This document shows positions 12,836 to 62,378 of a stretch of 64,000 nt of DNA, piece by piece (within the stretch, counting starts at the first letter, position 1; each line of letters starts with the position of its first letter). A model generated the notes under the pieces. The model was not told where the DNA came from. It worked only from the letters and a program-made list of their open reading frames with translations, and ran no database searches. Origin of the DNA: Sugiyamaella lignohabitans (lineage: Eukaryota; Ascomycota; Dipodascomycetes; Dipodascales; Trichomonascaceae); assembly GCF_001640025.1 (NCBI RefSeq), contig NC_031671.1, positions 2,108,001-2,172,000 on the forward strand, in the 5' to 3' direction. The position numbers and the translations under genes were made by a program.

Positions 12836-13576
12836 ACACTCGTCACACTGAGTTCTTTATACCTGATAAACACGGTAAGGAGAGACGACTGCCTCCAATC
12901 AACTTAAATATGCAAAAGCTGGAGCGGCAGGTTAGGCCAAAGCTTGATCTAGGGCGTTTCCAATTCCCAGTGAATGGGGATCAATTGATGATTAAAGCGA
13001 TGGAAAGTCAGTATCCTATCCTATCATAAGGAGTTCACCACAGTGAATGGAACTTTTGCCACGCTTCGATGTTACCCGAAGTGTGTGAGAAATCTTTTGT
13101 CTGCCGAAAAATTGGCATTTGAGAAGCCAACCGATGTTCAAGGAAGTACTACTCCCCATCTATACAAGGTATTAAATGAAGGTGAAATCAATATCATTAT
13201 AACCGAACGTATGAATAACTACATTCCTATCATCGATTTTATGGGAAGATTGGGAAGTGAGCTCAAACGTCCGGATATCTCAGTTGAAGAAGAGGTCAAG
13301 GTTCGTCGAGATCTACAGCTTTTGTATAAAACGGTCAAAGAGAACTACCAACACATACATGTGGGCGTATTCCACAAATATGGCAGAAAAGATGGTATTA
13401 TGGTTCGTGCTGCTGATGATGTTGTACTCACGAATTTCCAGTATAGTTTTACAAAAGTTGGTGAAAATGTTGACTTTTCAGTTGACTGGGAAAAATTGAA
13501 ATTGCTGTTTAAGACAGTTGAGAACCACCCGAAGGAAGAGCCTCGAAAAAGGAGAAAAAGAAGATGTTTTTATTAA
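12836..13576 (+). pseudogene. 3' half of the kinase-like array gene, broken
   Basis: Homologous to the last third of the plus-strand genes at 46262, 51820 and 56201, starting abruptly at CACTCGTCACACTG (the codons for RHT in the intact genes). It covers the KERRLPPINL linker and the degenerate kinase lobes. An indel near 13020 shifts the frame relative to the intact copies, and a codon is missing in the HELGVFH segment, which reads HVGVFH. The stop and the following 80 bp of 3' flank (AAGAGTGTTGG... ATTGGTGGGTCATTAATTTC) also match the array, so flank was carried along. Confidence 0.88.
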
Positions 13577-13654
13577 AGAGTGTTGGATCATTGTTATCAG
13601 TTTTTAATCAGTATATTGGTGGGTCATTAATTTCTGAGGAATGGCGACGAGCGT

Positions 13655-14593
13655 GAATGGACAAGACTGGAGGGGTGGTGGCTGGTCTTCACATGCCGTC
13701 AAAGTCTATCTTCAACTACATCTAGAAGATGTTATTCACAATTGGCACCGTAACGGCTTGGTTTGAATTGAGACGGTCGGTGGCTACGGATATAATGCAA
13801 GGGAAGTAAGGAGATATGAATCAAGAGCTCTCTTTATTGATAGTTTTAATGCCCGATTGAACAGCGTCAGGGAAGAAGTCTATCAGTATTATTTTAGCTC
13901 AGATTATGCCGAAAATGATCTGGCCCGGAGAAACTCCTCCGTTCCGTCAGAGTTCAAGTCTTATGACACAGATGAATTACTCCCAAGTATATTTTTGACC
14001 ATCTTTGTTTTAGGACCGTTGTTTACTTCTGAAGGTAGTAAATATGACATCAGTTATTATGAGTCGTACTTCGTGGACAAATTTACGCATCTCAACAAAA
14101 GGCTGTATTTTTTTTCGTGGATGTAATCTTGATTGATTCCATCCACTCAATGAAGGACATAGATTTATCGGATTATGAGGATGAGGATGATACAATAGTG
14201 GGATTAATTTATTTTCAATCTAGGTCTGATCTGAATTTATGCTATGGTAGTCCACATTGGTATCAGGTAGTGGATGAGCTTCGGTTTCTTCTATTAAATT
14301 CCAATCTTACTCATTGCATAGTATCCAGATTTTATGAAACACTCTTCATTGATATCATTGGATACAAGGATGGTCGGCTGAATTACGATATATTCCGGCT
14401 TAATCACGACTCTACGGAACCTACAGTCAGACGCGCGATAGCAGCTTGTTTAGCATACTGGTCAAATGAAGAAGATCCTGTCAAACGGGGTAAGTCCATT
14501 GTAATGGAGCTTAAGATGGAGCCGAATCCGTATTCAATTCTTCTTGCCGACCATGCCATGGAGGTTTCCGCGGTTAATATCATACGAAGTTAA
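13655..14593 (+). pseudogene. Middle part of the kinase-like array gene, broken
   Basis: Begins inside the gene at TGGACAAGACTGGAGG and runs to the codons for VNII, where homology stops. It therefore ends at the same gene position at which the fragment at 12836 begins. There is an in-frame TGA in the GLV-IETV segment near 13765 and a frameshift near 14105-14120 by a T run. The two fragments lie in inverted order (3' half first). See the finding on circular permutation. Confidence 0.88.
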
Positions 14594-43075: not shown

Positions 43076-43105
43076 GCCTCCGGTGGTCTGCGACGTTGCA
43101 CCATA

Positions 43106-43732
43106 TGCCAGATGTGGTTTCCGAAGATGTATAGATGTTTCAGGTCTGAGATATTCGGAATACTTTTTATCCAAGTAGTTTGCGAAACCATTATCTAGAG
43201 ATAAGAATTATGAGAATAACTAGTTAACCTTCAAGATTCATGTAGTCTTACCCTAGAATAAAGTTATATGAAAGTAGGTTAAGTACTGGGAGTAATCGCA
43301 ATTGAAGGAAGCTTTTGTAAGGATAACAGATGTTTTAATATCTAAAAAATTAAAATAATTGAAAGAGCATAATATACTACCTTTATATAATACTTGAGAA
43401 CAAGAGGAAAAAATAGAAAAGAATCTTTGAAAAGAAAATGAGGCGAAATTATTAGATGAAACAAAACGTGGGTCAAATGATCAAGGAGAAGCGAGTGTGA
43501 AACGAGCTAAGGCAAACTGGAAACAAAGGAAGTGGAGCACACGACATTAGCTTCAACATGAAACTAATCAAGGACAAGTTATAGAGAGAGAAGTCGGCGA
43601 AGTCGACATGAGATGCAGAAGTATGCATTTGGAGTGATGTCGGAGAGCGGCAGGAAGACGGCTGACATGCGGAGCAGTCGGTAGACGTCGGGAGATAACG
43701 GAAAAAGCTATCGGGAAGCGGGAATCGTGACA
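43106..43732. mobile_element. Solo LTR, unit 1
   Basis: 627 bp beginning TGCCAGATGTGG and ending AATCGTGACA (TG...CA), flanked on both sides by the 5-base direct repeat CCATA (43101-43105 and 43733-43737). Unit 3 has the uninterrupted target: its GC element remnant aligns across the insertion point. A TATATAATA stretch inside is a possible promoter box. No retrotransposon coding sequence is present in the window, so the family is unknown. Frames inside (43473-43736) are not genes. Confidence 0.85.
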
Positions 43733-43737
43733 CCATA

Positions 43738-44148
43738 CCCCCTGGACCTTCACCCTTCGTTCCAGTCCAGAGTGGGAAGTAAAAATTCTAACCCCATTTC
43801 CATTTTGTATATAGATATTTCAGCTAGAGTTAGGATAAATACTGGGCGATGCAGATTATTATTTGTCACGTGATCGAAAATTTGGCATTTAGGACTGGAA
43901 TGTAGGTACTTTGTGAGTGTGAATATTTCATAGCAAGCCTGGAACGATAAGTTTGATGTATGTCGGACAGGTATTGAACTGGCTGGCCGACCCTGATAGG
44001 GGAGACTGAGATGTTTCCGTATTTACTCTGGTTGCTCTCCATGGGTTGATTCTTACGACATCTCAGTCCATAGTTGAATAAGATATTATTGAGGTGGACT
44101 TGCTTGCCGATAATTCTAAAAGCCAATAATTCTGGACATAGATTGGAG
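43738..44148. other. 3' flank of nuclease gene copy 1
   Basis: Right half of the split GC element (to about 43770), then the presumed 3' UTR of the minus-strand gene. An 86-codon frame at 43866-44126 is not conserved in unit 3. Confidence 0.5.
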
Positions 44149-45587
44149 TCATGACATGTCTACGTCGAAAATGTTGGTCAAGCGTCCCATCTTATGTTGA
44201 TCGCGAGCAACTTCGTGCATCTCACGTATTCTCCTTATCATATCGGGGTCTTCAGCCGCCATTGAATAGAGATACCTAATAAACTTCCGCCGAAGTGTAT
44301 GCTCACCTTCCACTTCAATGCTGCCGAAATGGGCGTTGATGGCGACATTATAATCATCGTCCACTTGATAATTGATGAAACCCCATTCTCCCAGTGTGGT
44401 CAAGACTGTGTGTCCCGTTGCATAGCAATAGGAGTACTTGGACAGCTGGGAGAGTAGGCGACGGGAATTTGCTGTGTTGCTCTCAATTATGCTTTGAAGG
44501 CTACTGACCGACCGCTTTTTACACTCCACAACCATGACAGTTTCGCCCTTACTGATGTAAATATCGGCCCTGGGTTCACGATTAGTGGGTGCCCGGTCCA
44601 AAGGGAGTGAGTAGTCGGCATTTTGACGCCCAATTGTATAAGGTCCTGGGGAATCACAATTAATAAGATGACTGGGTATATCTCCGAGATCACTGAGTAG
44701 TTTCTCAAAAGAGGAAATGAAAAGTGTGGTTCGACTGACTACGGGATGGTCGCTAACCAGGCTAACCAGTCTAGTTTGATCACTTTGAATGGCCTCATAG
44801 ACAAAAGACAAATATGCCGTGTAGGCCTCCTTTATTTTTCTGATATTTTTTTTGAGTAGCTTTGACGCATAATTGAAGTCTTCGCTACTGCTTATTATGT
44901 CTGTAGATGCAGCAATTAGAGCAGATTTGTATGTCACGGTCAAACTTTCCAGGCTCTTATCAAATATTTCTTTGTGATCTTCCATACCAGACTGTAGTTG
45001 CACTTTGTTTAACAATTTCGGGAATGAGTTGATTGTGTTTTTTAAATAATTCAACATTTCTTTGCACTCGTCTTGGAACGTATCAATCGCTTGCTTGAGC
45101 TGTGACTTTAGTTCTTTCTTGGCAGGGTCATAGTCATCATCGAGAAGTGGATTTATCAGCCCGGATATTAGATTTTCGAGAATGGCGTAAACCCACTCCT
45201 CGACTTCTGATTCGCTCGTGAAGGTCTTGGGGAGCGTTCTACCAGTAAAAGATTTCCCGCTTTTCAGCTTGTGGAATCTTGAAGGATTATCACTATTGAC
45301 AAGTTCCGTTAAAAAGTTGTCCAGGCCGAAGTTGTTATCAAATTCCTCATTGTCGTTGAAGACGATATTTCCATTGTACTCATAAAAGGGATTGATGGTG
45401 CTGCTGCGTGTGGAAATTGCAGTACGTGCTCTTTTAGGGGCAGGTGGTTCAATTGACTCACCGAGTCGGCTTATGATGTAACGGGTTGTTACCGGGGGCA
45501 GGTGAGCAATGATATCTGCTGAGCTCTGTTAGATCACTCCTCCAGTTTGCTGTACTGTCTCTACTTACGAGATTCACTGGTACTCAT
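44149..45587 (-). CDS. PD-(D/E)XK nuclease-like protein, array copy 1, two exons
   Basis: Exon 1 45587-45569 (19 nt), intron 45568-45519 (50 nt; GTAAGT, CTAAC, CAG) and exon 2 45518-44149; 462 residues. The small first exon was found from the splice signals and extends the visible 302-residue frame by 160. The N-terminus has a Pro-rich linker and basic PAPKRAR; the middle (about 165-270) is helical, with coiled-coil-like stretches. The C-terminal part has EPRADIYI (D325) and VMVVECKK (E338, K340), the D...ExK pattern of PD-(D/E)XK nucleases, followed by a helix with Gln. It is predicted to cut nucleic acid, by motif only. Head to head with the kinase-like gene. Confidence 0.78.
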
Positions 45588-46261
45588 CGTCACGAGAGGG
45601 AATATCAGCTTGAATGTAGACAAGAGTGTTGCAGGTAACTTCCTTGTAGCAGCAGGGAGACGAGAAAAACAATGTTGTGCATGTAACTTTCCGGGGTATG
45701 CAGGGATGTGATACTTGCATGTTCACGTCGCTAGATCATGCAACATTAAAGTCGTGGCAAAGCCGTCCAAGGTCCAAGGGTCCTCGTAGCCCTTGAAGCA
45801 CCTTACTTTTGAAGGTTTAAAGAGCTACGACCCGCTTAAGAATAACAGGCCCTTGGGCCTCGCAATCTTCTCTATGATAGCATTCTCTGTGCTACACTTA
45901 ATATTTGTTTGGTGGGTTCGAGACGGGCTTATGTCTTGTTTAGAGGATTAAGGCTATGGCTATAAGTAACTCATTTTGGAAGCGTACTCAATGGTATATG
46001 TTTAACTCGGTCTACGGTCTTTAGTTCCTGATCAATGTTCAATGCTCAAACCTTCGGTTTATTAGAAGGAACATTACATGATCCAGGGACGAAAAGGAAT
46101 ATAATTTAAAGGTGCGCGATATGGCGAAAATGACCTGTCAAGCGGGCAGTACCTTATTTTAACTGTTATAAGCATAAACCACCCTTCGCCGCGTGTTATG
46201 TATATCAGGAATTTCCATAAAAAAACAGGGATTTGACACTAATGAACCTTTCCACAATCTA
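45588..46261. promoter_or_regulatory. Divergent promoter of the unit 1 gene pair
   Basis: 674 bp between the two start codons and nearly identical in unit 2. Contains the dyad AGGCCC-TT-GGGCCT at 45847-45860. Unit 3 has lost about 420 bp of this region, including the dyad. Confidence 0.6.
45847..45860. promoter_or_regulatory. Palindromic site in the divergent promoter, unit 1
   Basis: Perfect 6-base arms AGGCCC/GGGCCT around TT; could bind a dimeric regulator. Kept in unit 2, missing in unit 3. Confidence 0.35.
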
Positions 46262-48493
46262 ATGACTGACAAAAATCCCTCTCATCCCCCGGTTACACAC
46301 CGAATATATGATTGTATTGACGATGAGTACAAAGATGTGCAGATTCTCAGCGAAGCCTTCTTGACTCCCTTCCAGCTTGAGTATCAATATGATTTGCAGC
46401 TTTACGAAGTGAAAGCTGATGATAACAGTCCTTTGGCTCAATCTGGGCGCATCCAGGCCGAACTCAAGTCTGATCTTCGTACTCTGCAATTTACACCTTA
46501 TCCATGGAAGCCATCAACCGAAGAATTCATTGACGGCTCACTTTATCCTCAATTGGATAATTGTATTCGCCCTTTAGCGGTTTGGGAGGAGGAACAGGAG
46601 GAGGGTAAAAAAGAGATTATAGGTCAAATCATTGACAGTAACCCAGTTTTACAGCAATTAAGACGTGACTTTCACACTCAGTGGGCTACTGCTAAGCATG
46701 TCTATGATGTAAAGTACGCGAGAATGGGAGAGCGATATCTGCTTGAGAGTCGTGCTGCTTCGGACTATCAAAAGTTCATAAATCAGGGCCCATACAAAGA
46801 CTTTGACCGACTCCTAACCTCAGAGAGATTGCTACGTAGTGGACAAGACTGGAGGGGTGGTCCCTGGTCTTCACATGCAGTCAAAGTCTATCTTCAATTA
46901 CCTCTAGAAGATGTTATTCACAATTGGCACCGTAACGACTTGGTTCGAATTGAGACGGTCGGTGGCTACAGATATAATGCAAGGGAAGTAAGCAGAGATG
47001 AATTTAAGAGCTTTTTTATTGATAGTTTTAATGTCAGATTGGCGGCAGTCAGTGAAGAAATCTACAGCAATTTTGTGTCGGGCGATCGCGAAAGTGTTCT
47101 GAAATACAGAGCCTCCTCAGTTCCGTCAGAGTTCAAGTCTTATGATACAGATGAATTACTCCCAAGTATATTTTTGACCATCTGCCGCTTTGTTTTAAGA
47201 CCATTGTTTTTTGCTGAAGGTTGTAAATTTAGCTTCCATTATCTTAAGTCGTACCACGTCGACAAATATCGGCATCTCAACAAAGGGCCTAAATATACTT
47301 TCGTGAATGTGAATTTGATCGATTCCATTCACGCAATGAATAAGAAGAACTGCTTCACTGATCGGATGGACATGACTGTGGGATTGATTTATTTTCAGTC
47401 TAGCTCTGATTTGAATTTATGTTATGGCAGTCCACATTGGTATTTAGTAATGGATGAGCTTCGGTTCCATCTATTAAAATCCAAGCTTACTCATTTCATA
47501 GTATCCAGCTTTTATGAAACATTCTTCATTGATATCACTGGCTACAGGGATGGTCGGCTGAATTACGATATATTCCGGCTTAATCACGACTCTACAGAGC
47601 CCACTGTGAGACATGCGATAGCTGCTTATTTGACACACTGGTCGAGCGAAGATCCAATCGAACGGGGTAAGTCCATTGCAATGGAAATAAAGATGGAGCC
47701 GAATCCGTATTCAATTCTTCCGAGTCCCGATGCCATGGAGTTTTCGCCGGTTAACATCATTCGTCACACTAAGTTCTTTAGATCTGATAGACACACTAAA
47801 CGTGAACGGTTGCCTCCAATCAACTTAGATGTACGTAGGCTGGAGCGGGTGGTTAGGCCAAAACCCGATCTAGGACGCTTTCGATCCCCCGCTGATTGGG
47901 ATAAATTGATGATTCAGGCGATGAGAAGTTATAAACCTATCATTAAGGAGCTCACCACAGTGGATGGAATTGTTGCCACGATTCGATGTTACCCAAAATG
48001 TGTGGAACATAATTTCACTGCCGAAAAACGGGCATTTGAAAAGCTAACCAGCGTTCAAGGAAGTATTATTCCACATTTATACGAGGTATTAAAAGAAGGC
48101 GAAATCAATATTATTGTAACCGAACGTATGAATGAGTACATTCCTATCGTCGATTTTATGGAAAGATTGGCAACTGAGCTCAATCGTGAAGGTATCTCAG
48201 TGGAAGAAGAGGTCAAGGTTCGTCGAGATCTACAGCTTTTGTATAAAACGGTCAAAGAGAACTACCAACAAATACATGAACTGGGCGTATTTCATAAGTA
48301 TGGTAGAAAGGATGGCATTATGGTTCGTGCTGCTAATGATGTTGTACTCGCGAATTTCCAGTATAGTTTTACAGAAGTTAGTAAAGATGTTGATTTTTCA
48401 GTTGACTGGAAAAAGTTGAAAGTGCTGTTTAAGAAATTTGAGACCGGCCCGAAGGAAAAGCCTCGGAAAAGGAGAAGAAGATATTTTTATTAA
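46262..48493 (+). CDS. Kinase-like protein of the array, copy 1
   Basis: 743 residues from ATG 46262; the frame is open further back but without an upstream ATG. Residues 1-350 are unrecognised, mostly charged. The middle (about 375-450) has DLNLCYGSPHWYLVMDELRF and a hydrophobic strand pair, possibly a remnant nuclease-like or Crinkler/FunK1-type domain. From about 560 the pattern follows a protein kinase: ATIRCYPK at the VAIK site, a helix with Glu, a hinge-like IIVTERMN, then HELGVFHKYGRKDGIMV and VVLANFQYSF where HxD..N and DFG would be. The catalytic Asp, Asn and the DFG Asp are all replaced, so it looks like a pseudokinase. The basic tail RKRRRRYFY may be a nuclear signal. Differs from copy 2 mainly at residues 520-680. 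Confidence 0.8.
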   Translation: MTDKNPSHPPVTHRIYDCIDDEYKDVQILSEAFLTPFQLEYQYDLQLYEVKADDNSPLAQSGRIQAELKSDLRTLQFTPYPWKPSTEEFIDGSLYPQLDNCIRPLAVWEEEQEEGKKEIIGQIIDSNPVLQQLRRDFHTQWATAKHVYDVKYARMGERYLLESRAASDYQKFINQGPYKDFDRLLTSERLLRSGQDWRGGPWSSHAVKVYLQLPLEDVIHNWHRNDLVRIETVGGYRYNAREVSRDEFKSFFIDSFNVRLAAVSEEIYSNFVSGDRESVLKYRASSVPSEFKSYDTDELLPSIFLTICRFVLRPLFFAEGCKFSFHYLKSYHVDKYRHLNKGPKYTFVNVNLIDSIHAMNKKNCFTDRMDMTVGLIYFQSSSDLNLCYGSPHWYLVMDELRFHLLKSKLTHFIVSSFYETFFIDITGYRDGRLNYDIFRLNHDSTEPTVRHAIAAYLTHWSSEDPIERGKSIAMEIKMEPNPYSILPSPDAMEFSPVNIIRHTKFFRSDRHTKRERLPPINLDVRRLERVVRPKPDLGRFRSPADWDKLMIQAMRSYKPIIKELTTVDGIVATIRCYPKCVEHNFTAEKRAFEKLTSVQGSIIPHLYEVLKEGEINIIVTERMNEYIPIVDFMERLATELNREGISVEEEVKVRRDLQLLYKTVKENYQQIHELGVFHKYGRKDGIMVRAANDVVLANFQYSFTEVSKDVDFSVDWKKLKVLFKKFETGPKEKPRKRRRRYFY

Positions 48494-48663
48494 AGAGTGT
48501 TGGATTATTATTATTATTATAATTATTATTTTCAGTTTCAAAATCATTATATTGGTGGGTCATTAATTTCTGAGGAATGGCGACGAACTTGAATCGAGTT
48601 GTTAAATCAATCTGAGCTGGTTAGACAGATATATGAAGCGGTGGTCTGCGGCGTTGCACCATA

Positions 48664-49288
48664 TGCCAGATGTGGTTTCCGAAGATGTTTAGATGTTTCA
48701 TGTCTGAGATATTCGGAATACTTTATCCAAGTAGTTTGCGAAACCATTATCTAGAGATAAGAATTATGAGAATAACTAGTTAACCTTCAAGATTCATTTA
48801 GTCTTACCCTAGAATAAAGTTATATGAAAGTAGGTTAAGTACTGGGAGTAATCGCAATTGAAGGAAGCTTTTGTAAGGATAACAGATGTTTTAATATCTA
48901 AAAAATTAAAATAATTGAAAGAGCAAAATATACTACCTTTATATAATACTTGAGAACAAGAGGAAAAAATAGAAAAGAATCTTTGAAAAGAAAATGAGGC
49001 GAAATTATTAGATGAAACAAAACGTGGGTCAAATGATCAAGGAGAAGCGAGTGTGAAACAAGCTAAGGCAAACTGGAAACAAAGGAAGTGGAGCACACGA
49101 CATTAGCTTCAACATGAAACTAATCAAGGACAAGTTATAGAGAGAGAAGTCGGCGAAGTCGACATGAGATGCAGAAGTATGCATTTGGAGTGATGTCGGA
49201 GAGCGGCAGGAAGACGGCTGACATGCGGAGCAGTCGGTAGACGTCGGGAGATAACGGAAAAAGCTATCGGGAAGCGGGAATCGTGACA
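48664..49288. mobile_element. Solo LTR, unit 2
   Basis: 625 bp, TG...CA, flanked by CCATA at 48659-48663 and 49289-49293. It has the same insertion point as in unit 1, so the insertion came before the unit 1/2 duplication. Confidence 0.85.
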
Positions 49289-49704
49289 CCATACCCCCTG
49301 GACCTTCACCCTTCGTTCCAGTCCAGAGTGGGAAGTAAAAATTCTAACCCCATTTCCATTTTGTATATAGATATTTCAGCTAGAGTTAGGATAAATACTG
49401 GGCGATGCAGATTATTATTTGTCACGTGATCGAAAATTTGGCATTTAGGACTGGAATGTAGGTACTTTGTGAGTGTGAATATTTCATAGCAAGCCTGGAA
49501 CGATAAGTTTGATGTATGTCGGACAGGTATTGAACTGGCTGGCCGACCCTGATAGGGGAGACTGAGATGTTTCCGTATTTACTCTGGTTGCTCTCCATGG
49601 GTTGATTCTTACGACATCTCAGTCCATAGTTGAATAAGATATTATTGAGGTGGACTTGCTTGCCGATAATTCTAAAAGCCAATAATTCTGGACATAGATT
49701 GGAG

Positions 49705-51142
49705 TCATGACATGTCTACGTCGAAAATGTTGGTCAAGCGTCCCATCTTATGTTGATCGCGAGCAACTTCGTGCATCTCACGTATTCTCCTTATCATATC
49801 GGGGTCTTCAGCCGCCATTGAATAGAGATACCTAATAAACTTCCGCCGAAGTGTATGCTCACCTTCCACTTCAATGCTGCCGAAATGGGCGTTGATGGCG
49901 ACATTATAATCATCGTCCACTTGATAATTGATGAAACCCCATTCTCCCAGTGTGGTCAAGACTGTGTGTCCCGTTGCATAGCAATAGGAGTACTTGGACA
50001 GCTGGGAGAGTAGGCGACGGGAATTTGCTGTGTTGCTCTCAATTATGCTTTGAAGGCTACTGACCGACCGCTTTTTACACTCCACAACCATGACAGTTTC
50101 GCCCTTACTGATGTAAATATCGGCCCTGGGTTCACGATTAGTGGGTGCCCGGTCCAAAGGGAGTGAGTAGTCGGCATTTTGACGCCCAATTGTATAAGGT
50201 CCTGGGGAATCACAATTAATAAGATGACTGGGTATATCTCCGAGATCACTGAGTAGTTTCTCAAAAGAGGAAATGAAAAGTGTGGTTCGACTGACTACGG
50301 GATGGTCGCTAACCAGGCTAACCAGTCTAGTTTGATCACTTTGAATGGCCTCATAGACAAAAGACAAATATGCCGTGTAGGCCTCCTTTATTTTTCTGAT
50401 ATTTTTTTTGAGTAGCTTTGACGCATAATTGAAGTCTTCGCTACTGCTTATTATGTCTGTAGATGCAGCAATTAGAGCAGATTTGTATGTCACGGTCAAA
50501 CTTTCCAGGCTCTTATCAAATATTTCTTTGTGATCTTCCATACCAGACTGTAGTTGCACTTTGTTTAACAATTTCGGGAATGAGTTGATTGTGTTTTTTA
50601 AATAATTCAACATTTCTTTGCACTCGTCTTGGAACGTATCAATCGCTTGCTTGAGCTGTGACTTTAGTTCTTTCTTGGCAGGGTCATAGTCATCATCGAG
50701 AAGTGGATTTATCAGCCCGGATATTAGATTTTCGAGAATGGCGTAAACCCACTCCTCGACTTCTGATTCGCTCGTGAAGGTCTTGGGGAGCGTTCTACCA
50801 GTAAAAGATTTCCCGCTTTTCAGCTTGTGGAATCTTGAAGGATTATCACTATTGACAAGTTCCGTTAAAAAGTTGTCCAGGCCGAAGTTGTTATCAAATT
50901 CCTCATTGTCGTTGAAGACGATATTTCCATTGTACTCATAAAAGGGATTGATGATGCTGCTGCGTGTGGAAATTGCAGTACGTGCTCTTTTAGGGGCAGG
51001 TGGTTCAATTGACTCACCGAGTCGGCTTATGATGTGACGGGTTTTTACTGGGGGCAGGTGAGCAATGATATCTGCTGAGCTCTGTTAGATCACTCCTCCA
51101 TTTGCTGTACTGTCTCTACTTACGAGATTCACTGGTACTCAT
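49705..51142 (-). CDS. PD-(D/E)XK nuclease-like protein, array copy 2, two exons
   Basis: Exon 1 51142-51124, intron 51123-51075 (49 nt) and exon 2 51074-49705; 462 residues. The last 302 residues are identical to copy 1. Three changes are visible near the N-terminus: VTTRY becomes VKTRH, and SSTINPF becomes SSIINPF. The D...ExK motif is intact. One base is missing inside the intron relative to copy 1, which leaves the splice signals unharmed. Both copies could therefore be active. Confidence 0.78.
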
Positions 51143-51819
51143 CGTCACGAGAGGGAATATCAGCTTGAATGTAGAAGACAAGAGTGTTGCAGGTAACTTC
51201 CTTGTAGCAGCAGGGAGACGAGATAAACAATGTTGTGCATGTAACTTTCCGGGGTATGCAGGGATGTGATACTTGCATGTGCACGTCGCTAGATCATGCA
51301 ACATTAAAGTCGTGGCAAAGCCGTCCAAGGTCCAAGGGTCCTCGTAGCCCTTGAAGCACCTTACTTTTGAAGGTTTAAAGAGCTACGACCCGCTTAAGAA
51401 TAACAGGCCCTTGGGCCTCGCAATCTTCTCTATGATAGCATTCTCTGTGCTACACTTAATATTTGTTTGGTGGGTTCGAGACGGGCTTATGTCTTGTTTA
51501 GAGGATTAAGGCTATGGCTATAAGTAACTCATTTTGGAAGCGTACTCAATGGTATATGTTTAACTCGGTCTACGGTCTTTAGTTCCTGATCAATGTTCAA
51601 TGCTCAAACCTTCGGTTTATTAGAAGGAACATTACATGATCCAAGGACGAAAAGGAATATAATTTAAAGGTGCGCGATATGGCGAAAATGACCTGTCAAG
51701 CGGGCAGTACCTTATTTTAACTGTTATAAGCATAAACCACCCTTCGCCGCGTGTTATGTATATCAGGAATTTCCATAAAAAAACAGGGATTTGACACTAA
51801 TGAACCTTTCCACAATCTA
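51143..51819. promoter_or_regulatory. Divergent promoter of the unit 2 gene pair
   Basis: 677 bp, near-identical to unit 1, with the AGGCCC-TT-GGGCCT dyad at 51405-51418. Confidence 0.6.
51405..51418. promoter_or_regulatory. Palindromic site in the divergent promoter, unit 2
   Basis: Same dyad as at 45847-45860. Confidence 0.35.
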
Positions 51820-54054
51820 ATGACTGACAAAAATCCCTCTCATCCCCCGGTTACACACCGAATATATGATTGTATTGACGATGAGTACAAAGATGTGCAG
51901 ATTCTCAGCGAAGCCTTTTTGACTCCCTTCCAGCTTGAGTATCAATATGATTTGCAGCTTTACGAAGTGAAAGCTGATGATGACAGTCCTTTGGCTCAAT
52001 CTGGGCGCATCCAGGCCGAACTCAAGTCTGATCTTCGTACTCTGCAATTTACACCTTATCCATGGAAGCCATCAACCGAAGAATTCATTGACGGCTCACT
52101 TTATCCTCAATTGGATAATTGTATTCGCCCTTTAGCGGTTTGGGAGGAGGAACAGGAGGAGGGTAAAAAAGAGGTTATAAGTCAAATCATTGATGACAGG
52201 AACCCAGTTTTACAGCAATTAAGACGTGACTTTCACACCCAGTGGGCTACTGCTAAGCATGTGTATGATGTAAAGTACGCGAGAATGGGAGAGCGATATC
52301 TGCTTGAGAGTCGTGCTGCTTCGGACTATCAAAAGTTCATCAATCAGGGCCCATACAAAGACTTTGACCGACTCCTAACCTCAGAGAGATTGCTACGTAG
52401 TGGACAAGACTGGAGGGGTGGTCCCTGGTCTTCACATGCAGTCAAAGTCTATCTTCAATTACCTCTAGAAGATGTTATTCACAATTGGCACCGTAACGAC
52501 TTGGTTCGAATTGAGACGGTCGGTGGCTACAGATATAATGCAAGGGAAGTAAGCAGAGATGAATTTAAGAGCTTTTTTATTGATAGTTTTAATGTCAGAT
52601 TGGCGGCAGTCAGTGAAGAAATCTACAGCAATTTTGTGTCGGGCGATCGCGAAAGTGTTCTGAAATACAGAGCCTCCTCAGTTCCGTCAGAGTTCAAGTC
52701 TTATGATACAGATGAATTACTCCCAAGTATATTTTTGACCATCTGCCGCTTTGTTTTAAGACCATTGTTTTTTGCTGAAGGTTGTAAATTTAGCTTCCAT
52801 TATCTTAAGTCGTACCACGTCGACAAATATCGGCATCTCAACAAAGGGCCTAAATATACTTTCGTGAATGTGAATTTGATCGATTCCATTCACGCAATGA
52901 ATAAGAAGAACTGCTTCACTGATCGGATGGACATGACTGTGGGATTGATTTATTTTCAGTCTAGCTCTGATTTGAATTTATGTTATGGCAGTCCACATTG
53001 GTATTTAGTAATGGATGAGCTTCGGTTCCATCTATTAAAATCCAAGCTTACTCATTACATAGTATCCAGCTTTTATGAAACATTCTTCATTGATATCACT
53101 GGCTACAGGGATGGTCGGCTGAATTACGATATATTCCGGCTTAATCACGACTCTACAGAGCCCACTGTGAGACATGCGATAGCTGCTTATTTGACACACT
53201 GGTCGAGCGAAGATCCAATTGAACGGGGTAAGTCCATTGCAATGGAAATAAAGATGGAGCCGAATCCGTATTCAATTCTTCCGAGTCCTGATGCCATGGA
53301 ATTTTCGCCGGTTAACATCATTCGTCACACTAAGTTCTTTAGATCTGATAGACACACTAAACGTGAACGGTTGCCTCCAATCAACTTAGTTATACGTAGG
53401 CTGGAGCGGGTGGATAGGCCAAAACCCGATCTAGGACGCTTTCGATCCCCCGCTGATTGGGATAAATTGATGATTCAGGCGATGAGAAGTTATAAACCTA
53501 TCATTAAGGAGCTCACCACAGTGGATGGAACTGTTGCCACGATTCGATGTTACCCAAAATGTGTGGAAAATCTTTTCTCTGCCGAAAAGTTGGCATTTGA
53601 GAAGCTAAACGATGTTCAAGGAAGTATTATTCCGCATCTATACGAGGTATTAAAAGAAGGCGAAATCAATATCATTATAACCGAACGTATGGATGACTAC
53701 ATTCCTATCATCGATTTTATGGAAAGATTGGCAAGTGAGCTCAATCGTGAAGATATCTCAGTGGAAGAAGAGGTCAAGGTTCGTCGAGATCTACAGCTTT
53801 TGTATAAGACGGTCAAAGAGAACTACCAACAAATACATGAACTGGGCGTATTCCACGACTATGGCAGAAAAGATGGTATTATGGTTCGTGCTGCTAATGA
53901 TGTCGTACTCGCGAATTTCCAGTATAGTTTTACAAAAGTTAGTAAAGATGTTGACTTTTCAGTTGACTGGAAAAAGTTGAAAGTGCTGTTTAAGAAATTT
54001 GAGAATCGCCCGAAGGAAAAGTCTCGGAAAAGGAGAAGAAGATATTTTTATTAA
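51820..54054 (+). CDS. Kinase-like protein of the array, copy 2
   Basis: 744 residues from ATG 51820. The first 520 residues differ from copy 1 by only a handful of changes, including one extra codon near residue 141 (IIDDRNP against IIDSNP). The kinase-like lobes are clearly different: CVENLFSAEKLAFEKLNDV where copy 1 has CVEHNFTAEKRAFEKLTSV, and ITERMDDYIPIIDFMERLAS. The catalytic-loop position reads HDYGRKDGIMV and the DFG position NFQ, so the pseudokinase reading also holds here. This version of the lobe is closer to unit 3 and to the fragment at 12.8 kb than to copy 1. Confidence 0.8.
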   Translation: MTDKNPSHPPVTHRIYDCIDDEYKDVQILSEAFLTPFQLEYQYDLQLYEVKADDDSPLAQSGRIQAELKSDLRTLQFTPYPWKPSTEEFIDGSLYPQLDNCIRPLAVWEEEQEEGKKEVISQIIDDRNPVLQQLRRDFHTQWATAKHVYDVKYARMGERYLLESRAASDYQKFINQGPYKDFDRLLTSERLLRSGQDWRGGPWSSHAVKVYLQLPLEDVIHNWHRNDLVRIETVGGYRYNAREVSRDEFKSFFIDSFNVRLAAVSEEIYSNFVSGDRESVLKYRASSVPSEFKSYDTDELLPSIFLTICRFVLRPLFFAEGCKFSFHYLKSYHVDKYRHLNKGPKYTFVNVNLIDSIHAMNKKNCFTDRMDMTVGLIYFQSSSDLNLCYGSPHWYLVMDELRFHLLKSKLTHYIVSSFYETFFIDITGYRDGRLNYDIFRLNHDSTEPTVRHAIAAYLTHWSSEDPIERGKSIAMEIKMEPNPYSILPSPDAMEFSPVNIIRHTKFFRSDRHTKRERLPPINLVIRRLERVDRPKPDLGRFRSPADWDKLMIQAMRSYKPIIKELTTVDGTVATIRCYPKCVENLFSAEKLAFEKLNDVQGSIIPHLYEVLKEGEINIIITERMDDYIPIIDFMERLASELNREDISVEEEVKVRRDLQLLYKTVKENYQQIHELGVFHDYGRKDGIMVRAANDVVLANFQYSFTKVSKDVDFSVDWKKLKVLFKKFENRPKEKSRKRRRRYFY

Positions 54055-54188
54055 AGAGTGTTGGATTATTATTATTATTATTATCAGTTTTCAGAATCAG
54101 TATATTGGTGGGTCATTAATTTCTGAGGAATGGCCAGGAACGTGAATTGAGCTGTTAAATGGATCTGATCTAGTTAGATACATAGGAA

Positions 54189-54242
54189 GCCTCTGGCGGT
54201 CTGCGGCTTTGCCCCAGACCCCGTGGTCCCTCGCGGTTCGCC
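54189..54242 (+). repeat. GC hairpin element, decayed, at the unit 2/3 boundary
   Basis: GCCTCTGGCGGTCTGCGGC then TTTGCCCCAGACCCCGTGG. This is the uninterrupted form of the element that carries the solo LTR in units 1 and 2. Confidence 0.8.
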
Positions 54243-54606
54243 AGAGTGGGATGAAGGTTAAGTTCTAACCCCATCGTATGCATATATTTCAGATCTGTAG
54301 TGTGGATTAATATCAAGGGGAGATTGTTTGTCACGTGATGGAGGTCTCAATATTCAGGGCTGTAATGCGTAATGCAGGTAGGTACTTCGTGAGTATTTCT
54401 TAGGAACATTAGAAGGATAAGTTCGATGGATTGTTTCTTACGAAATATCATCCTAAGTTCAAACATCAGAGGTTCGCCGAGAATCATTAAAGGTGGAATT
54501 GCCAATAATTCTAAAAACCAATTTTTCACATATTTTCCGTTATAAAACCGATCAATCCATTCAGCTGTACACTCCCACAGACAAATTGTTTCCAATGATA
54601 CCGGAG

Positions 54607-55822
54607 TCATGACATTTCCACGTCGCTCAAGCGTCTCTTCATACTTTATCACGTACAATATGGATCATCCTGCATATTCTCCATATCATCAAGATCCTGT
54701 GATATCATAATTGAAATAACAGGCTATTATTTTTCTACTTAGATGATACGCACACATCGGCTCTTCAAGTTCAGCAAATGTGTGTTGATGGAAACTTCGA
54801 AAGGTCGTCCACTTTATATGACATGAAAACCCATTCTCCCAGAGTAGTCTGGATTGTTTGACTAGTCTCGTATCCAATATGGATAGCTGACATAGTATTC
54901 AACGGGCGTTGGCTGTGTCTTTCGCAATAATTGCTAACAGGCTGAACGAAGTCCGCCTTTTTACACTCCACAACCAAGGCAATCCTGCCCTTGCTGAAGT
55001 AATCATCAGCCTTATGTTCACTAGTAGTGGGTGTCGGGCCCAGTGCTTTGTTAATGTCTGCATCTTGCCTTTTAATATGGATTAGCCTGGGAATTATTTC
55101 CCAGTTGACTGGGTGTATCTTCGACATTGTTGGGGAGTTATGTAAGAGACAGTCACTAAACTGTCTTTTCCTTCGAATTATGTCCTTGTAAAACTCCACT
55201 ATGGTTGAGAGTCTTCCCTCATTTCTCTGACAGATTCTTTAGTAGATGTATGACATTGTAAATGGTCTGACGCAGCAGTTAGAGGCACGGTATATTCCAC
55301 ATCAAAGAGCCTCGGGGTCAGTCTTGAATTATCTTTGCACATATTGGAGACATTCTGTGTTTCCACTTTTAGTGTTGTCGGGAGGGACTCGATCGTAAAT
55401 TTTTTTTTTAATATTTTGGCGTTTCTTTGTTTTCGTCTTGAAGTTTATCGATCAAGATGTTCACCTTTTAGTAACCTTTTGGAGGTTTCATATTTATTAT
55501 CGAAAGGTGGGTTCATTAGCCCAGTTATTAAGGTTGTCAATATGGCTTGAGCCCATTTCTTCACATCTGCTTGTGAGGGTTTGAAAGAGCAATGTATCAT
55601 GAGTCACAACCTGGCCCATTTTTTAATGAAACCTGTGGAATTTGACGGATGGCGACTTCTGGCACGTTCTCTTACTTCTTTCAAGTGGAATATAGTGAAA
55701 AATCGTCCATTGCTAGTGACAACGATATTTACATTGTATTGGTAAGAGGAATTCACTTTTAGCTAATTTAATTGCTCTCTAGCTATATTATGGATGGGTT
55801 GTTACAGGGGGCAGGTGAGAAA
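54607..55822 (-). pseudogene. Nuclease-like gene of unit 3, broken
   Basis: Homology to copies 1 and 2 runs from the stop region (54607) to the start of exon 2 (about 55822). The frame is interrupted repeatedly; the longest open piece is 54771-55199. Exon 1 with the ATG and the donor site are gone, removed together with part of the promoter. The motif block survives: EHKADDYF and LVVECKK, then TTLGEW. So the gene decayed after its nuclease motif had been maintained, and it cannot make a full-length protein. Confidence 0.85.
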
Positions 55823-56200
55823 CGACCTCCACTAGAGTCGTAATCGCTGGTAATACGTTTTCAACTCAGCCTATGGTCTATCGTTCCTTATCAATATTCA
55901 AAGTTCGATCATTAGACTTATTAGGAAGGTAGAGGGTGTAGGCAAGACTCAGAAACGAAACAACTTAGAAATTAAAGTTGTTGGACATCATGGTATTTAC
56001 CTGCCATGTAGGAGTCTCATTTCGAAAGTTATATGCATAACAAACATCTCGCCGTGTACCTAAAAAAGAGCAGTTAGTACTTCAGAATTATAACGCGTTC
56101 AACAATCTAGTGACTGACAAAAATCCCTCTCTTCCCCCGGTTACACGCCGATTATTTGATTGTGTTGACGGCGAGTACAAAGATATGCCGATTTTCTGCC

Positions 56201-58318
56201 ATGCGCTATCTACGTGAATGGCAGCTTTACAAAGTGAAAGCTGATGATGACAGTCCTTCGGCTCAATTTGGGCGCATCCAGGCCGGACTCAAGTCTGATC
56301 TTCTTACTCTGCAGTTTGGACCTTATCCATCTATGCGATCGACCAAAGAATTCATTGACGGCTCACTTTATCCTCAATTATATAATTGTATTCGCCCTTT
56401 AGCGGTATGGGAGGAGGAGCAGGAGAAGGGTAAAAAAAAGGTTATAAGTCAAATCATTGACAGTAACCCAGTTTTACAGCAATTGAGACGTGACTTTCAC
56501 ACTCAGTGGGCTACTGCTAAGCATGTCTATGATGTAAAGTACGCGAGAATGGGAGAGCGATATCTGCTTGAGAGTCGTGCTGCTTCGGACTATCAAAAGT
56601 TCATCAATCAGGGTCCATACAAAGACTTTGAGCGACTTCTTATCCAAGAGAGATTGCTACGTAGTGGACAAGACTGGAGGGGTGATCGTTGGTCTTCACA
56701 TGCAGTCAAAGTCTATCTTCAATTACCTCTAGAAGATGTTATTCACAATTGGCACCGTAATGATCTGGTTCAAATTGAGACGGTCGGTGGCTACGGATAT
56801 AATGCAAGGGAAGTAAGCAGAGATGAATTTAAGAGCTTCTTTATTGATAGTTTTAATGTCAGATTGGCGGCAGTCAGCAAAGAAATTTACAACTATGATT
56901 TTGGGTCGGGCGATCGCGAAAGTGTTCTGAAATACAGAGCCTCCTCAGTTCCGTCAGAGTTCAAGTCTTATGATACAGATGAATTACTCCGAAGTGTATT
57001 TCTGACCATCTGCGACTTTGTTTTAAGACCGTTGCTCTTTTCTGAAAATAGTAAATTTAAATTCACTTATTTCGAGTTGTACCGCGTCAGCAAATGTCGG
57101 CATCACAACAAAGGGCATGGCTGTGTTTTAGTGACTTTGGATTGGATCGATTCCATTCACGCAGTGAATATGAAGAAATATTCTACTGATGGGATAAACC
57201 CGATTGTGGCATTAATTTATTTTCAGTCTAGCTCTGATTTGAATCTATGTTATGGCAGTCCCCATTGGTATTTAGTAATGGATGAGCTTCGGTTCCATCT
57301 ATTAAAATCCAAGCTTACTCATTACATAGTATCCAGTTTTTATGAAACATTCTTCATTGATATCACTGGCTACAAGGATGGACGGCTGAATTACGATATA
57401 TTCCGTCTTGATCACGACTCTACGGAACCTGCTGTCAGACGCGCGATAGCTGCTTATTTAGCATATTGGTCAAACGAAGAAGATCCCTTCAAACGGGGTA
57501 AGGCCATTGTAATGGAATTTGAGATGGAGCCGAATCCGTATTCAATTCTTCCAGCCGCCAATGCCATGGAGTTTTCCCCGGTTAATATCACTCGTCACAC
57601 TGAGTTCTTTATACCTGATAAACACGATAAGGAGAGACGACTGCCCCCAATCAACTTAAATATACAAAGGCTGGAGCGGGTTGTTAGACCAAAGCCTGAT
57701 CAAGGGCGCTTTCAATTCGACGCTGATTGGGATCAGTTGATGATTACAGTTATGAGAAGTTATAAACCTATTATTCAGGAGTTTGCCACAGTGAATGGAA
57801 CTTTTGCCACGCTTAGATGTTACCCGAAGCGTGTGAAACGTCTTTTCTCTGCCGAAATATTGGCATTTGAGAAACTGACTAGTGTTCAAGGAAGTATTAT
57901 TCCCCATATTTACGAGGTATTAAAAGAAGGCGAAATCAATATCATTATAACCGAAAGTATGAATGACTACATTCCTATCATCGATTTTATGAAAAGATTG
58001 GCAAGTGAGCTCAATCGTGAAGATATCTCAGTGGAAGAAGAGGTCAAGGTTCGTCGAGATCTACAGCTTTTGTATAAAACGGTCAAAGAGAATTACCAAC
58101 AAATACATGAACTGGGCGTGTTCCACAAATATGGCAGAAAGGATGGTATTATGGTTCGTGCTGCTAATGATGTTGTTCTCGCGAATTTCCAGTATAGTTT
58201 TACAGAAGTTAGTAAAGATGTTGACTTTTCAGTTGATTGGAGAAATCTGAAGGTGCTCTTTAAGGAAGTTGATAAACACCTGAAGGGAATTCCTCTAAAG
58301 AAGAGGGAAAGATGTTGA
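56201..58318 (+). CDS. Kinase-like protein of the array, copy 3 (shortened N-terminus)
   Basis: 705 residues if started at ATG 56201. The position matching the ATG of copies 1 and 2 reads GTG (56110-56112), and a deletion plus frameshift follows, with a TGA at 56215-56217 in the old frame. From WQLYKVKADD onward the frame is open to the end and clearly homologous. Residues about 260-330 (matching 47190-47370) have diverged strongly. The kinase-like end keeps HELGVFHKYGRKDGIMV and NFQYSF. The tail is shorter and differs (KKRERC). It may be a functional shortened protein or a young pseudogene whose frame is still open. Confidence 0.65.
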   Translation: MRYLREWQLYKVKADDDSPSAQFGRIQAGLKSDLLTLQFGPYPSMRSTKEFIDGSLYPQLYNCIRPLAVWEEEQEKGKKKVISQIIDSNPVLQQLRRDFHTQWATAKHVYDVKYARMGERYLLESRAASDYQKFINQGPYKDFERLLIQERLLRSGQDWRGDRWSSHAVKVYLQLPLEDVIHNWHRNDLVQIETVGGYGYNAREVSRDEFKSFFIDSFNVRLAAVSKEIYNYDFGSGDRESVLKYRASSVPSEFKSYDTDELLRSVFLTICDFVLRPLLFSENSKFKFTYFELYRVSKCRHHNKGHGCVLVTLDWIDSIHAVNMKKYSTDGINPIVALIYFQSSSDLNLCYGSPHWYLVMDELRFHLLKSKLTHYIVSSFYETFFIDITGYKDGRLNYDIFRLDHDSTEPAVRRAIAAYLAYWSNEEDPFKRGKAIVMEFEMEPNPYSILPAANAMEFSPVNITRHTEFFIPDKHDKERRLPPINLNIQRLERVVRPKPDQGRFQFDADWDQLMITVMRSYKPIIQEFATVNGTFATLRCYPKRVKRLFSAEILAFEKLTSVQGSIIPHIYEVLKEGEINIIITESMNDYIPIIDFMKRLASELNREDISVEEEVKVRRDLQLLYKTVKENYQQIHELGVFHKYGRKDGIMVRAANDVVLANFQYSFTEVSKDVDFSVDWRNLKVLFKEVDKHLKGIPLKKRERC

Positions 58319-58940
58319 TGGGTTATGGCTATTATTGTTTTTTAGAATAGGTTTATTATGGTTGGTTATTTATTTCGGTTTTATTACCGGTATTGTTAGT
58401 AGTATGTAATAGTTTTCATAGTTGAGCCTAGACTGTGAATGCTGATGTATTCTCGGAGAGAAACGGTATCCACTGAAGCTGTGGGATATCTAGGATCGCA
58501 CTTTGATCTATTTACTCCAAATGGGGGTCCTGCCTTCGGCGGCTGGGATTCTGCCCTAGACCCCGTCGTTCTCGCTTCGCTGGAGGTGTTAGGTGTGGTG
58601 AACCGACCACGCGAGAAATTACTTTTATCCCACGCTCGACTCGAGCGAAGCGAGAGGAGCCACGGGGTCTGGGGCAGAGCCCCAGCCGCCAGAGGCATAT
58701 CCCTCTGCAGCTGTTAAAGGGGAGCAGATCTGCAATCTTGCTGCTTATCTTATCTTTTGGCGTCAACCCCACCTGATCTCCATTGCAGTCGAAGCAACTT
58801 ATTTAGTACCTACCAGACGGGAGCAAATAAATCCCCGTCACATTAGTTTCGACGAACTTAGTCAACGTTTTTTTTTCGTGAGACAAACTTGAGAATATAT
58901 ACTATCTCTGCTGTTTAACGATTTTAATAGGACAGTCAAA
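58319..58940. other. Right flank of the array to the HMCES gene
   Basis: 3' flank of copy 3, an inverted pair of GC elements (58532-58696) and the promoter of the SRAP gene. Confidence 0.55.
58532..58696. repeat. Inverted pair of GC hairpin elements at the right edge of the array
   Basis: Forward arm 58532-58585 is decayed (GCCTTCGGCGGCTGGGATTC). Reverse arm 58637-58696 is nearly canonical. Confidence 0.88.
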
Positions 58941-60657: not shown

Positions 60658-61659
60658 TTACAACTTCTCGTAGCGAGGTTTGCTCTTTGAAAAGGCAGCC
60701 ATGATGCCATTGACGAAATCCTCACCCAGGCCATGACCGTTAAATTCGGCAATCTGATCGAGTCCGCTTTCAATGCTGTGTTCCTTGGCATAATTGAGAG
60801 ATCTCTTAGAACCGTAAACAGCTATTGGCGATTTCTCAGCAATATCCTTGGCGAGAGCCAGAGCGCCTTCCAAAGCCTGTTCCTTGGTATCAAAGACCTT
60901 TGAGATCAAACCCTGCTCTTTGCCCTCATCAGCAGAGAAATCCCGGCCAGTATACGTCGCTTCTTTCAACCAGCTAGTGTTTCCGACAATACGAGGGAGT
61001 CTCTGTAAACTGCCGATATCAGCAGCCATGCCAATAACAACTTCACGAACTGACAGAATGGCATCTCGCGAAGCATATCTGATATCGACTGCAGATATAA
61101 TATCGATTCCCAGGCCAACACAAGCACCATGGGCCACGGCAATGACAGCTGCATCTGTTAGATCTGGTCCTGGGCCTTTGCCTCCGGCGGCTGGGGCTCC
61201 GCCCCAGACCCCGTAGCTCCTGCTTCGCAGGAGATGCTGGGACCGTAGACGTCCCGACTCGAGCGAAGCGAGAGGAGCAGCGGGGTCTGGGGCGGCGCCC
61301 CAGCCACCGGAGGCAAAAAGACACCTACGTTTACTCAGTTTGTATGGGGCATGAATGGCGTTCTGGAATTCTTTGATGTGTCGATAAATCTGAATGCCCT
61401 TGCGGGAAGTTTCGTCGGTCTCGGAGGGGAATTGGGACGATTTGACGTCCAGGCCAGCACAGAATGCACTGCCGACTCCAGACAGAAGCACTACTCGTAC
61501 ATCAGGGTCGATATCTGCTTTCTGGAAGATGTTGTGGTACTCGAGGTATGAATCTCGGTGAACTGCGTTTCTGACCTTGGGTCGGTTGAACTCGACGTGA
61601 AGCACGAATTCAGCGGGTTTGGTCACTCGGTAGTATTTATACGAAGAGTAGTCGGTCAT
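60658..61659 (-). CDS. Dienoyl-CoA isomerase (ECH1/Dci1-type, crotonase family), two exons
   Basis: Exon 1 61659-61329, intron 61328-61149 (GTAGGT ... CTAAC ... GCAG) and exon 2 61148-60658; 273 residues. The join gives APYKLSKPVIAVAHGACVGL. Crotonase landmarks: SAFCAGLDVKS (oxyanion hole), GACVGLGIDI, and CoA-isomerase residues in AVDIRYASRDAILSVREV and GMAADIGSLQRLPRIVG, which fit delta3,5-delta2,4-dienoyl-CoA isomerases. It shifts double bonds during beta-oxidation of unsaturated fatty acids. The C-terminus ...RYEKL is only a weak PTS1-like signal, so peroxisomal targeting is uncertain. Without splicing, the 180-bp intron stays in frame with no stop. Confidence 0.9.
   Translation of the reverse strand: MTDYSSYKYYRVTKPAEFVLHVEFNRPKVRNAVHRDSYLEYHNIFQKADIDPDVRVVLLSGVGSAFCAGLDVKSSQFPSETDETSRKGIQIYRHIKEFQNAIHAPYKLSKRRCLFASGGWGAAPDPAAPLASLESGRLRSQHLLRSRSYGVWGGAPAAGGKGPGPDLTDAAVIAVAHGACVGLGIDIISAVDIRYASRDAILSVREVVIGMAADIGSLQRLPRIVGNTSWLKEATYTGRDFSADEGKEQGLISKVFDTKEQALEGALALAKDIAEKSPIAVYGSKRSLNYAKEHSIESGLDQIAEFNGHGLGEDFVNGIMAAFSKSKPRYEKL
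61180..61314. repeat. Inverted pair of GC hairpin elements inside the ECH1-type intron
   Basis: Forward arm 61180-61233 (cap CTCCTGCTTCGCAGGAG), spacer with GGGACCGTAG and reverse arm 61257-61314. The pair makes up 135 of the 180 intron bases, leaving little more than the splice signals. Confidence 0.95.
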
Positions 61660-62378
61660 TGTCGGTCTGGAATAAGCTGTTGGTTTCAAGCCAGTCGTGT
61701 TTTTTTTGTACTTAGATCCGTCTTCAAGAAATCAATTCAACTTTTCAATGCGATTGATCTCATACTAAATACTATCGCTCGCTTATTGTGGGGTAAGTAA
61801 AGTACCGAGGTGGATATGCACTTAACCTGCATTTGGTCCCGATATCACTGTCAGATCCGCGGACTTCTCATCATGCATTTGTGGCAGGCTCTCTGACAGG
61901 GGATAAAATGAATTGACATGGCATCCGGCCCTATAAACGGGATACCGATAGTCAATTAGAGATCCTGATCCTCGTCCGAGAATAGTGCAGAAAATCTGCG
62001 TATTGCGTGGACTGAAGTAAAGTTAGGGTCCTAGTCGGAGTGATTCAGTTCCAGGGATTTATGCGAACCAAGAACAGAAAATGGCAGGACAATGGACCGG
62101 AGTGTAACTAGTCCATATTCCATCAATTTGGAAATTCAGCACCGGTAAACCCAACTGGAAGATGGACGGACTTTGGTCCGCGTTCACGTGATAAGTGATC
62201 AAGCGAGCGGATAAACCCATTGCCATGAAAACAGCCGGTGGAAACGAGCCGGGGTCAAAAAGTGCCCCCTATGCAGCAGTTCCCCCGCATTCACCGCACC
62301 TGGTGAAGCCATTCACTTATCATATAAAGGTTACCATTGTAGTCAAATGCGACCGTGATAGGCATTGTCAACAAAGCA
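61660..62378. promoter_or_regulatory. Divergent promoter of two crotonase-family genes
   Basis: 719 bp between the two start codons. A shared control region would suit two genes of one pathway. CATATAAAGG at about 62320-62329 is a TATA candidate for the right-hand gene. Confidence 0.5.
61805..61810. promoter_or_regulatory. CCGAGG site, candidate fatty-acid-response element
   Basis: CCGAGG/CCTCGG is the core bound by FarA/FarB and Por1-type zinc-cluster activators of fatty acid catabolism genes in filamentous fungi and Yarrowia. One copy lies about 145 bp upstream of the isomerase start. A six-base match is expected by chance now and then. Confidence 0.35.

Follow-up and report, generated by a model that had tools for sequence, protein, structure and literature searches.

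A tandem, multi-copy pair of divergent genes in Sugiyamaella lignohabitans as a possible nuclease-pseudokinase toxin-antidote element

An array of three head-to-tail units occupies approximately 43.08–58.32 kb of the analyzed window, a stretch of 64,000 nucleotides (C3:2108001-2172000, contig NC_031671.1) from the 15.93-Mb, four-contig assembly of Sugiyamaella lignohabitans. The units follow each other at spacings of ~5.56 and ~4.27 kb, and every one of them consists of a minus-strand gene, designated N, lying opposite and divergent to a plus-strand gene, designated K. Such head-to-head pairs in three units had been proposed in the original prediction and are indeed present: units 1 and 2 (U1, U2) are intact, while unit 3 (U3) has decayed to an N relic and a K without its start. 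The interpretation tentatively favored here, with a confidence that stays a little short of even, is that the array is a two-gene toxin-antidote element, in which N would harm cells and K would neutralize its own N by binding. The poison-antidote logic is backed by one-sided decay of the family, by the way in which K evolves, including a variable block, and by copy turnover; descent from the Spok or FunK1 proteins, also raised originally, was left without any sequence relation.

Searching the genome with K returned 20 matches, which represented 10 long open frames and 10 relic pieces, the latter including a rearranged relic in the window and the out-of-frame start of U3. Because 10 long K frames are present genome-wide, the repetition is far above chance. 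The same 10 frames were recovered with the divergent D2 copy as a second query; they form five clusters, which are spread over two contigs and lie in either orientation (Table 1), and the nine which kept the shared ATG start have 743–747 codons. An N gene or its relic precedes K at all 10 loci, at A1 as a short piece (E-value 3e-5). The N frame is open in U1, U2 and D1 (99–100% identical) and in F1 (56% identical), and broken in U3, D2, F2, E1, A1 and A2. Thus, K is open at 10 of the 10 paired loci (with the normal start at nine) and N at four. All four open N genes face an open K and no open N occurs without one in this single genome, which is what is expected from a toxin gene that never exists without its antidote gene, while the antidote, facing a dead N at six of the ten loci, may persist alone. 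Neutral decay would be expected to reach K before N, since K is the longer gene. A sign test done by hand gave p 0.03 for 6 vs 0 and, without U3, p 0.06 for 5 vs 0, both before correction for common ancestry; the six N losses were judged to represent three to five independent events.

The ratio of nonsynonymous to synonymous substitution rates (dN/dS) of K ranged from 0.32 to 0.63 and was below 1 in all 45 pairs of copies. The chance that K would stay free of stops was estimated by a neutral simulation (substitutions without indels, 2000 runs). For pairs in which both N are dead, this chance was 0.02 for A1-A2 (93 substitutions), 0.002 for D2-F2 (141 substitutions), 0/2000 for U3-A2 (263 substitutions) and 0.18 for F2-E1 (38 substitutions); among the other pairs it was 0/2000 for U1-F1 (263 substitutions), 0.08 for U1-U2 and 0.39 for U1-D1. 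K therefore looks retained in the copies with a dead N, unless the substitutions predate the death of N.

Within K, a block at alignment columns 262–385 was chosen from a scan of U1-F1; the check that followed covered 12 of the 45 pairs, with some copies occurring in more than one pair. The dN/dS in this block was raised against the rest of the gene (for example, 2.97 vs 0.32 and 1.93 vs 0.38), with Fisher p < 0.01 in seven of the 12 pairs; no rise was found in D2-F2, F2-E1 and F1-E1, and U1-U2 and U2-D1 had zero changes there. The highest 80-codon window fell in or overlapped the block in U1-F1, U1-A2, U1-A1, U3-A2 and D2-A1, in none of which any of 500 permutations reached as high, and also in A1-A2 (18 of 500 permutations). 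In six pairs, the top window was located outside the block (permutations per 500: U1-U3, 2; U1-U2, 4; U2-D1, 23; D2-F2, 58; F1-E1, 216; F2-E1, 274). The block may be either diversifying or under less constraint.

The N gene model, with the first exon and the intron placed by hand from the open frame and the splice signals, joins a 19-nt exon 1 (MSTSES) across a 50-nt intron (GTAAGT...CTAAC...AG) to a minus-strand frame open over 459 codons in unit 1, resulting in a protein of 462 amino acids. The model is supported by copy F1, which has a corresponding exon 1 (MSSSES) and intron. The motif D325-x12-E338-C-K340, followed by Q364-x3-Y368 (QxxxY), is invariant in the four open N, which represent two distinct lineages, and the residue numbers D325, E338 and K340 given originally for the first copy are reproduced by the spliced model. 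D-x12-ECK also persists in the U3 and A2 relics, while the D2 relic reads ECH. Conservation of exon 1, intron and motif between the two lineages indicates that N had been in use, and between U1 and F1 the N genes differ with dN 0.33 and dS 0.65, a ratio of ~0.5, and therefore N was under purifying selection. The Pfam model HSDR_N_2 weakly matched the stretch with the signature, with E-values of 0.0024 (in a 302-residue open reading frame) and 0.0082 (in the longer frame), both below the Pfam cut-off; it was found in three of the four open N and was absent from F1, whose best match was Sec8_N (E 0.003). A profile search of PDB sequences placed the Holliday-junction resolvase Hjc (1ob8) over the signature at E 0.89, with keratin ranking first at E 0.57 over the helical part, and the middle of N matched many helical and coiled-coil families at comparable E-values, up to that of Sec8_N. 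Motif conservation together with the weak HSDR_N_2 and Hjc matches supports an assignment of N to the PD-(D/E)XK nucleases, as had been predicted. Two PADLOC matches of the F1 copy, the only one of the four open N to give any (AbiTi, E 0.0066; PDC-M23B, E 0.022), were taken as chance.

The kinase-like nature of the K C-terminus, the second part of that prediction, was weakly supported by matches to defence kinases. In NCBIfam, the MAD6 defence kinase matched seven of the 10 copies (best E 0.025, residues 618–708 of unit 1), and in PADLOC three PD-T4-6 models matched five, three and one of the 10 copies (best E 0.0056). A consensus fragment of the 161-residue C-terminal stretch gave MAD6 as the best NCBIfam match (E 0.0024) and PD-T4-6 in PADLOC (E 0.0042, 0.0058 and 0.018), and no kinase in Pfam; the reversed fragment and nine shuffled ones matched nothing in PADLOC (0 of 10). 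PD-T4-6 is reported to have a Ser/Thr kinase fold at its N-terminus (PMC11514479). In our own reading of the motif register, the position of HxD is occupied by HKY in nine copies and by HDY in U2, and the position of DFG by NFQ in all 10: Tyr680 and Asn698 replace the two aspartates throughout, the U2 Asp being located one position earlier. Both aspartates expected of an active kinase are thus absent from 10/10 copies, confirming the loss noticed originally, and because of this absence an action of K by binding is favored. A degenerate kinase is weakly supported for the C-terminus, and K is likely a pseudokinase.

Other origins considered for K found no support. A dead nuclease in its middle region was without support, as the profile comparison of N with K was null and the middle region had no PDB sequence match. 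FunK1 (PF17667) is a fungal kinase family with members in this genome, and the relation of K to it, for which a profile search had been suggested, was not found: PF17667 matched neither any of the 10 K copies nor the consensus fragment, the K loci were not listed in a genome-wide PF17667 search, and hhalign of K against four PF17667 proteins of this genome was null. The four strongest PF17667 matches of the genome are at C1:2676189, C1:4154409, C2:2879764 and C1:3221039 and have no detectable relation to K. PF20516 had no match in the genome, its control being likewise silent. Protein searches, a scan of prokaryote genomes with N and viral scans found no relatives outside the genome in collections presumed to hold few or no fungi, from which the spread of the family is not inferable.

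Some of the copies are recent. Unit 2 is nearly identical to unit 1 (99% in N, 96.5% in K), and U1, U2 and D1 all carry an insertion resembling a solo long terminal repeat (LTR) 3' of N, with the ends inspected in U1 and U2; since all three have it, they were copied after the insertion. Three pairs of insertion-like sequences elsewhere are 5.5–6.2 kb apart, the spacing expected of an LTR retroelement. Compared in 100-column steps, U1 and F1 are 86–98% identical in the intergenic region, 87–98% in the 5' part of K and 60–80% in exon 2 of N; beyond N, ~360 bp are 68% identical and then the similarity stops at the LTR-like insertion of unit 1. The synonymous divergence of the same two copies is 0.65 in N and 0.23 in K. 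Both gene conversion homogenizing the promoter and K, and constraint on a shared promoter, would produce such unevenness. Promoter and terminator scans used bacterial consensus sequences and were uninformative for this genome. A GC-rich repeat with inverted ends is dispersed through the genome (974 exact 20-mer matches); examples are found at window positions 61193-61301 and 58545-58683, and one copy is located within an apparent intron (GTAAAC...CTAACAG) of the gene 60658-61689, read as enoyl-CoA-hydratase-like. As a unit boundary this repeat was rejected, being too common to inform (32 near-matches in the 64 kb). The N search of the genome found no match adjoining the rearranged K relic of the window.

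Table 1. Features of the array, its surroundings in the window and the long K frames of the genome (window positions unless a contig is given).
Feature	Position	Strand	Remarks
Unit 1 N	44149..45587	-	exon 1 45569-45587, intron 45519-45568, exon 2 44149-45518; 462 amino acids
Unit 1 intergenic region	45588..46261	.	674 bp between the start codons of N and K; candidate bidirectional promoter
Unit 1 K	46262..48493	+	743 amino acids; kinase-like C-terminus; Tyr680, Asn698; variable block at ~residues 261-382
Unit 2 N	49705..51142	-	exon 1 51124-51142, exon 2 49705-51074
Unit 2 K	51820..54054	+	744 amino acids
Unit 3 N relic	54804..55832	-	stops and frame changes; separate N lineage; D-x12-ECK still visible
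Unit 3 K frame	56201..58318	+	705 codons; shared start and first ~38 residues out of frame
K relic, rearranged	12841..14587	+	C-terminal half precedes middle half; far from the array
Solo-LTR-like insertion, unit 1	43106..43732	+	627 bp, TG...CA ends, 5-bp duplication CCATA, 3' of N
LTR-like insertion copy, unit 2	48664..49288	+	site, start, end and flanks as in unit 1
Long K frames	U1, U2, U3 in the window; D1, D2 at C3:2180-2189 kb; E1 at C3:2334 kb; A1, A2 at C3:588-594 kb; F1, F2 at C1:979-986 kb		
Putative PUF-like gene	~39.3-42.4 kb		flanks the array; name read from its sequence
Putative SRAP-like gene	~58.9-60.5 kb		flanks the array on the other side; name read from its sequence

In the toxin-antidote scheme, N would act as a PD-(D/E)XK DNA nuclease harming cells by cutting their DNA, while K, with its presumably kinase-derived but catalytically dead C-terminus, would serve as the antidote neutralizing its own N by binding. 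Cells or spores inheriting the pair would go on making K and survive, and those which lost it after exposure to N would die; in this way the pair could spread and duplicate even without any benefit, and a selfish reading of the array is plausible. Once the antidote is present, N would be free to decay and K would have to stay, while new N/K variants could arise through changes in the variable block of K and in N. A more specific form of this scheme is doubtful but possible: the genes may constitute a family of yeast killer meiotic drivers, in which the nuclease toxin and the pseudokinase antidote are split over one bidirectional promoter, binding takes place via the variable block, each pair is a compatibility type of its own and the antidote-only copies act as resistance genes. 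If true, a kinase-type antidote could act by binding alone, toxin and antidote could be tested apart as separate genes, and the nuclease-kinase killers would extend to the budding yeasts; the part of the literature covered has none recognized in budding yeasts, albeit this is no proof of absence. How Spok resistance works is described as unsolved (PMC9972908, PMC12693581).

A number of observations weigh against the toxin-antidote interpretation. The asymmetry of decay amounts at most to 6 to 0 in events that are not independent, the N of F2 and E1 carrying identical stops, and the K of unit 3 is itself damaged; moreover, K is also present as a relic at three other places (once in the window and twice in the A cluster), none of which has an open N alongside. 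Some of the simulated substitutions may be older than the death of N, and dN exceeded dS in the variable block with nominal significance in only one of the 12 pairs (U1-A2, p 0.013), which leaves room for relaxed constraint. The kinase assignment is exposed to several objections: full-length K matched no kinase in Pfam (10/10 copies) or in PDB sequence searches, the best E-value of any kinase match is a weak 0.0024, and the K copies of unit 1, U2 and D2 individually had no PADLOC match. The unrelated NCBIfam model CPFASyn scored better elsewhere in K (10/10 copies, best E 0.0024), and the non-kinase JetA reached E 0.0042 on the consensus fragment in PADLOC; the control with reversed and shuffled fragments covered PADLOC only. 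Finally, AlphaFold2 models built from window-only alignments were unusable (mean pLDDT, the predicted local distance difference test, 34.0 for N and 27.7 for K), leaving both folds unconfirmed.

A module beneficial to the host, acting in genome defence or allorecognition against, for example, mobile or non-self DNA and owing its diversity to an arms race with targets from outside rather than to drive, would also accommodate the variable block and the multi-copy family, and the kinase models matching K (MAD6, PD-T4-6) represent bacterial defence proteins, although PADLOC contains defence families only. Such a module predicts, however, that the effector N is retained, whereas N was lost at six of the 10 loci and K was kept; the lack of any sensor or NTPase family match in Pfam also speaks against it, albeit weakly, since no family passed the cut-off. 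Overall, this explanation is considered rather unlikely. If K instead belonged to a fast-evolving family of FunK1, Crinkler or effector type and had its own role in the cell, with N as a neighbor turned redundant, then the preservation of K in all 10 pairs and the loss of N in six would follow, and the genome does contain 18 PF17667 matches at E <= 0.001 (12 above the cut-off), although the presence of PF17667 in four of 14 control genomes suggests that some of these are general kinases. We regard this as unlikely: neither PF17667 nor the four proteins of this genome that match it best resemble K to a detectable degree, no open N was found without an open K, and exon 1, intron and motif of N are conserved across two lineages.

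The dispersal of five clusters over two contigs in both orientations, the near identity of U1, U2 and D1 with their shared LTR-like insertion, and copies of the dispersed repeat near some unit borders would also agree with an element of mobile type, in which the endonuclease N drives its own copying via DNA breakage and repair, with K as its accessory or regulatory protein. The dispersed repeat is too dense in the window for border copies to mean much, no unit ends or target duplications were recognized (no systematic search for them was made), and the preservation of K beside a dead N would not be expected if the element had died and K were its accessory gene. This alternative, too, appears improbable. 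The remaining one, a decaying duplicated pair without present function whose open frames are simply young unbroken copies, is very unlikely. It finds agreement in the relics of both genes, in the recent origin of U1, U2 and D1, and in the unsurprising absence of stops in U1-D1, U1-U2 and F2-E1; it is opposed by the stop-free divergence of U1-F1 and D2-F2 and by the dN/dS of K remaining below 1 in every pair.

Conflict proteins combining a nuclease with a kinase, those of Crinkler type included, are fusions or secreted effectors, and as no family above the Pfam cut-off was present in N or K, a Crinkler-type header stays compatible with the search results. We know of no nuclease domain in the wtf killers of fission yeast, and the antidote of the Wolbachia system CinA/CinB is presumably not kinase-derived, unlike K. 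Nuclease and kinase domains are widely paired in conflict systems (Zhang et al. 2016, as cited in PMC12693581). The wtf killers resemble the N/K family in being multi-copy with antidote-only and broken members (PMC12693581, PMC6660238), but a single wtf gene yields both parts via separate isoforms (PMC12693581). CinA/CinB shares with N/K the two linked genes and a toxin that is a PD-(D/E)XK nuclease with QxxxY, and provides the nearest working precedent, a tested one, for a partner which rescues and binds in a cognate-specific manner while leaving the active site unblocked; CinB differs in having a pair of nuclease domains, and, in contrast to the divergent N/K, the two genes are co-directional and 5–51 bp apart (PMC8787490).

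Among fungi, the nearest precedent is that of the Spok killers of Podospora and Fusarium. These likewise combine a PD-(D/E)XK nuclease carrying QxxxY with a kinase domain, and the best match of their nuclease is HsdR of a type-I restriction enzyme (PMC6660238, PMC12693581). Spok genes are multi-copy and patchy, and Spok2 of strain A has lost killing and kept resistance (PMC6660238, PMC12693581), comparable to the N/K loci with a dead N. Killing by Spok proceeds through DNA damage (PMC9972908), and resistance depends on the kinase domain and its Asp D667 (PMC6660238). Spok is, however, one protein, whereas N and K are separate divergent frames at 10/10 loci, and the residue corresponding to the Spok kinase Asp is absent from every K copy. 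By analogy, and with no sequence relation that would make it a member of either, the N/K pair may work like CinA/CinB or like a split Spok: by the features tested it is not a Spok, but it may work like one.

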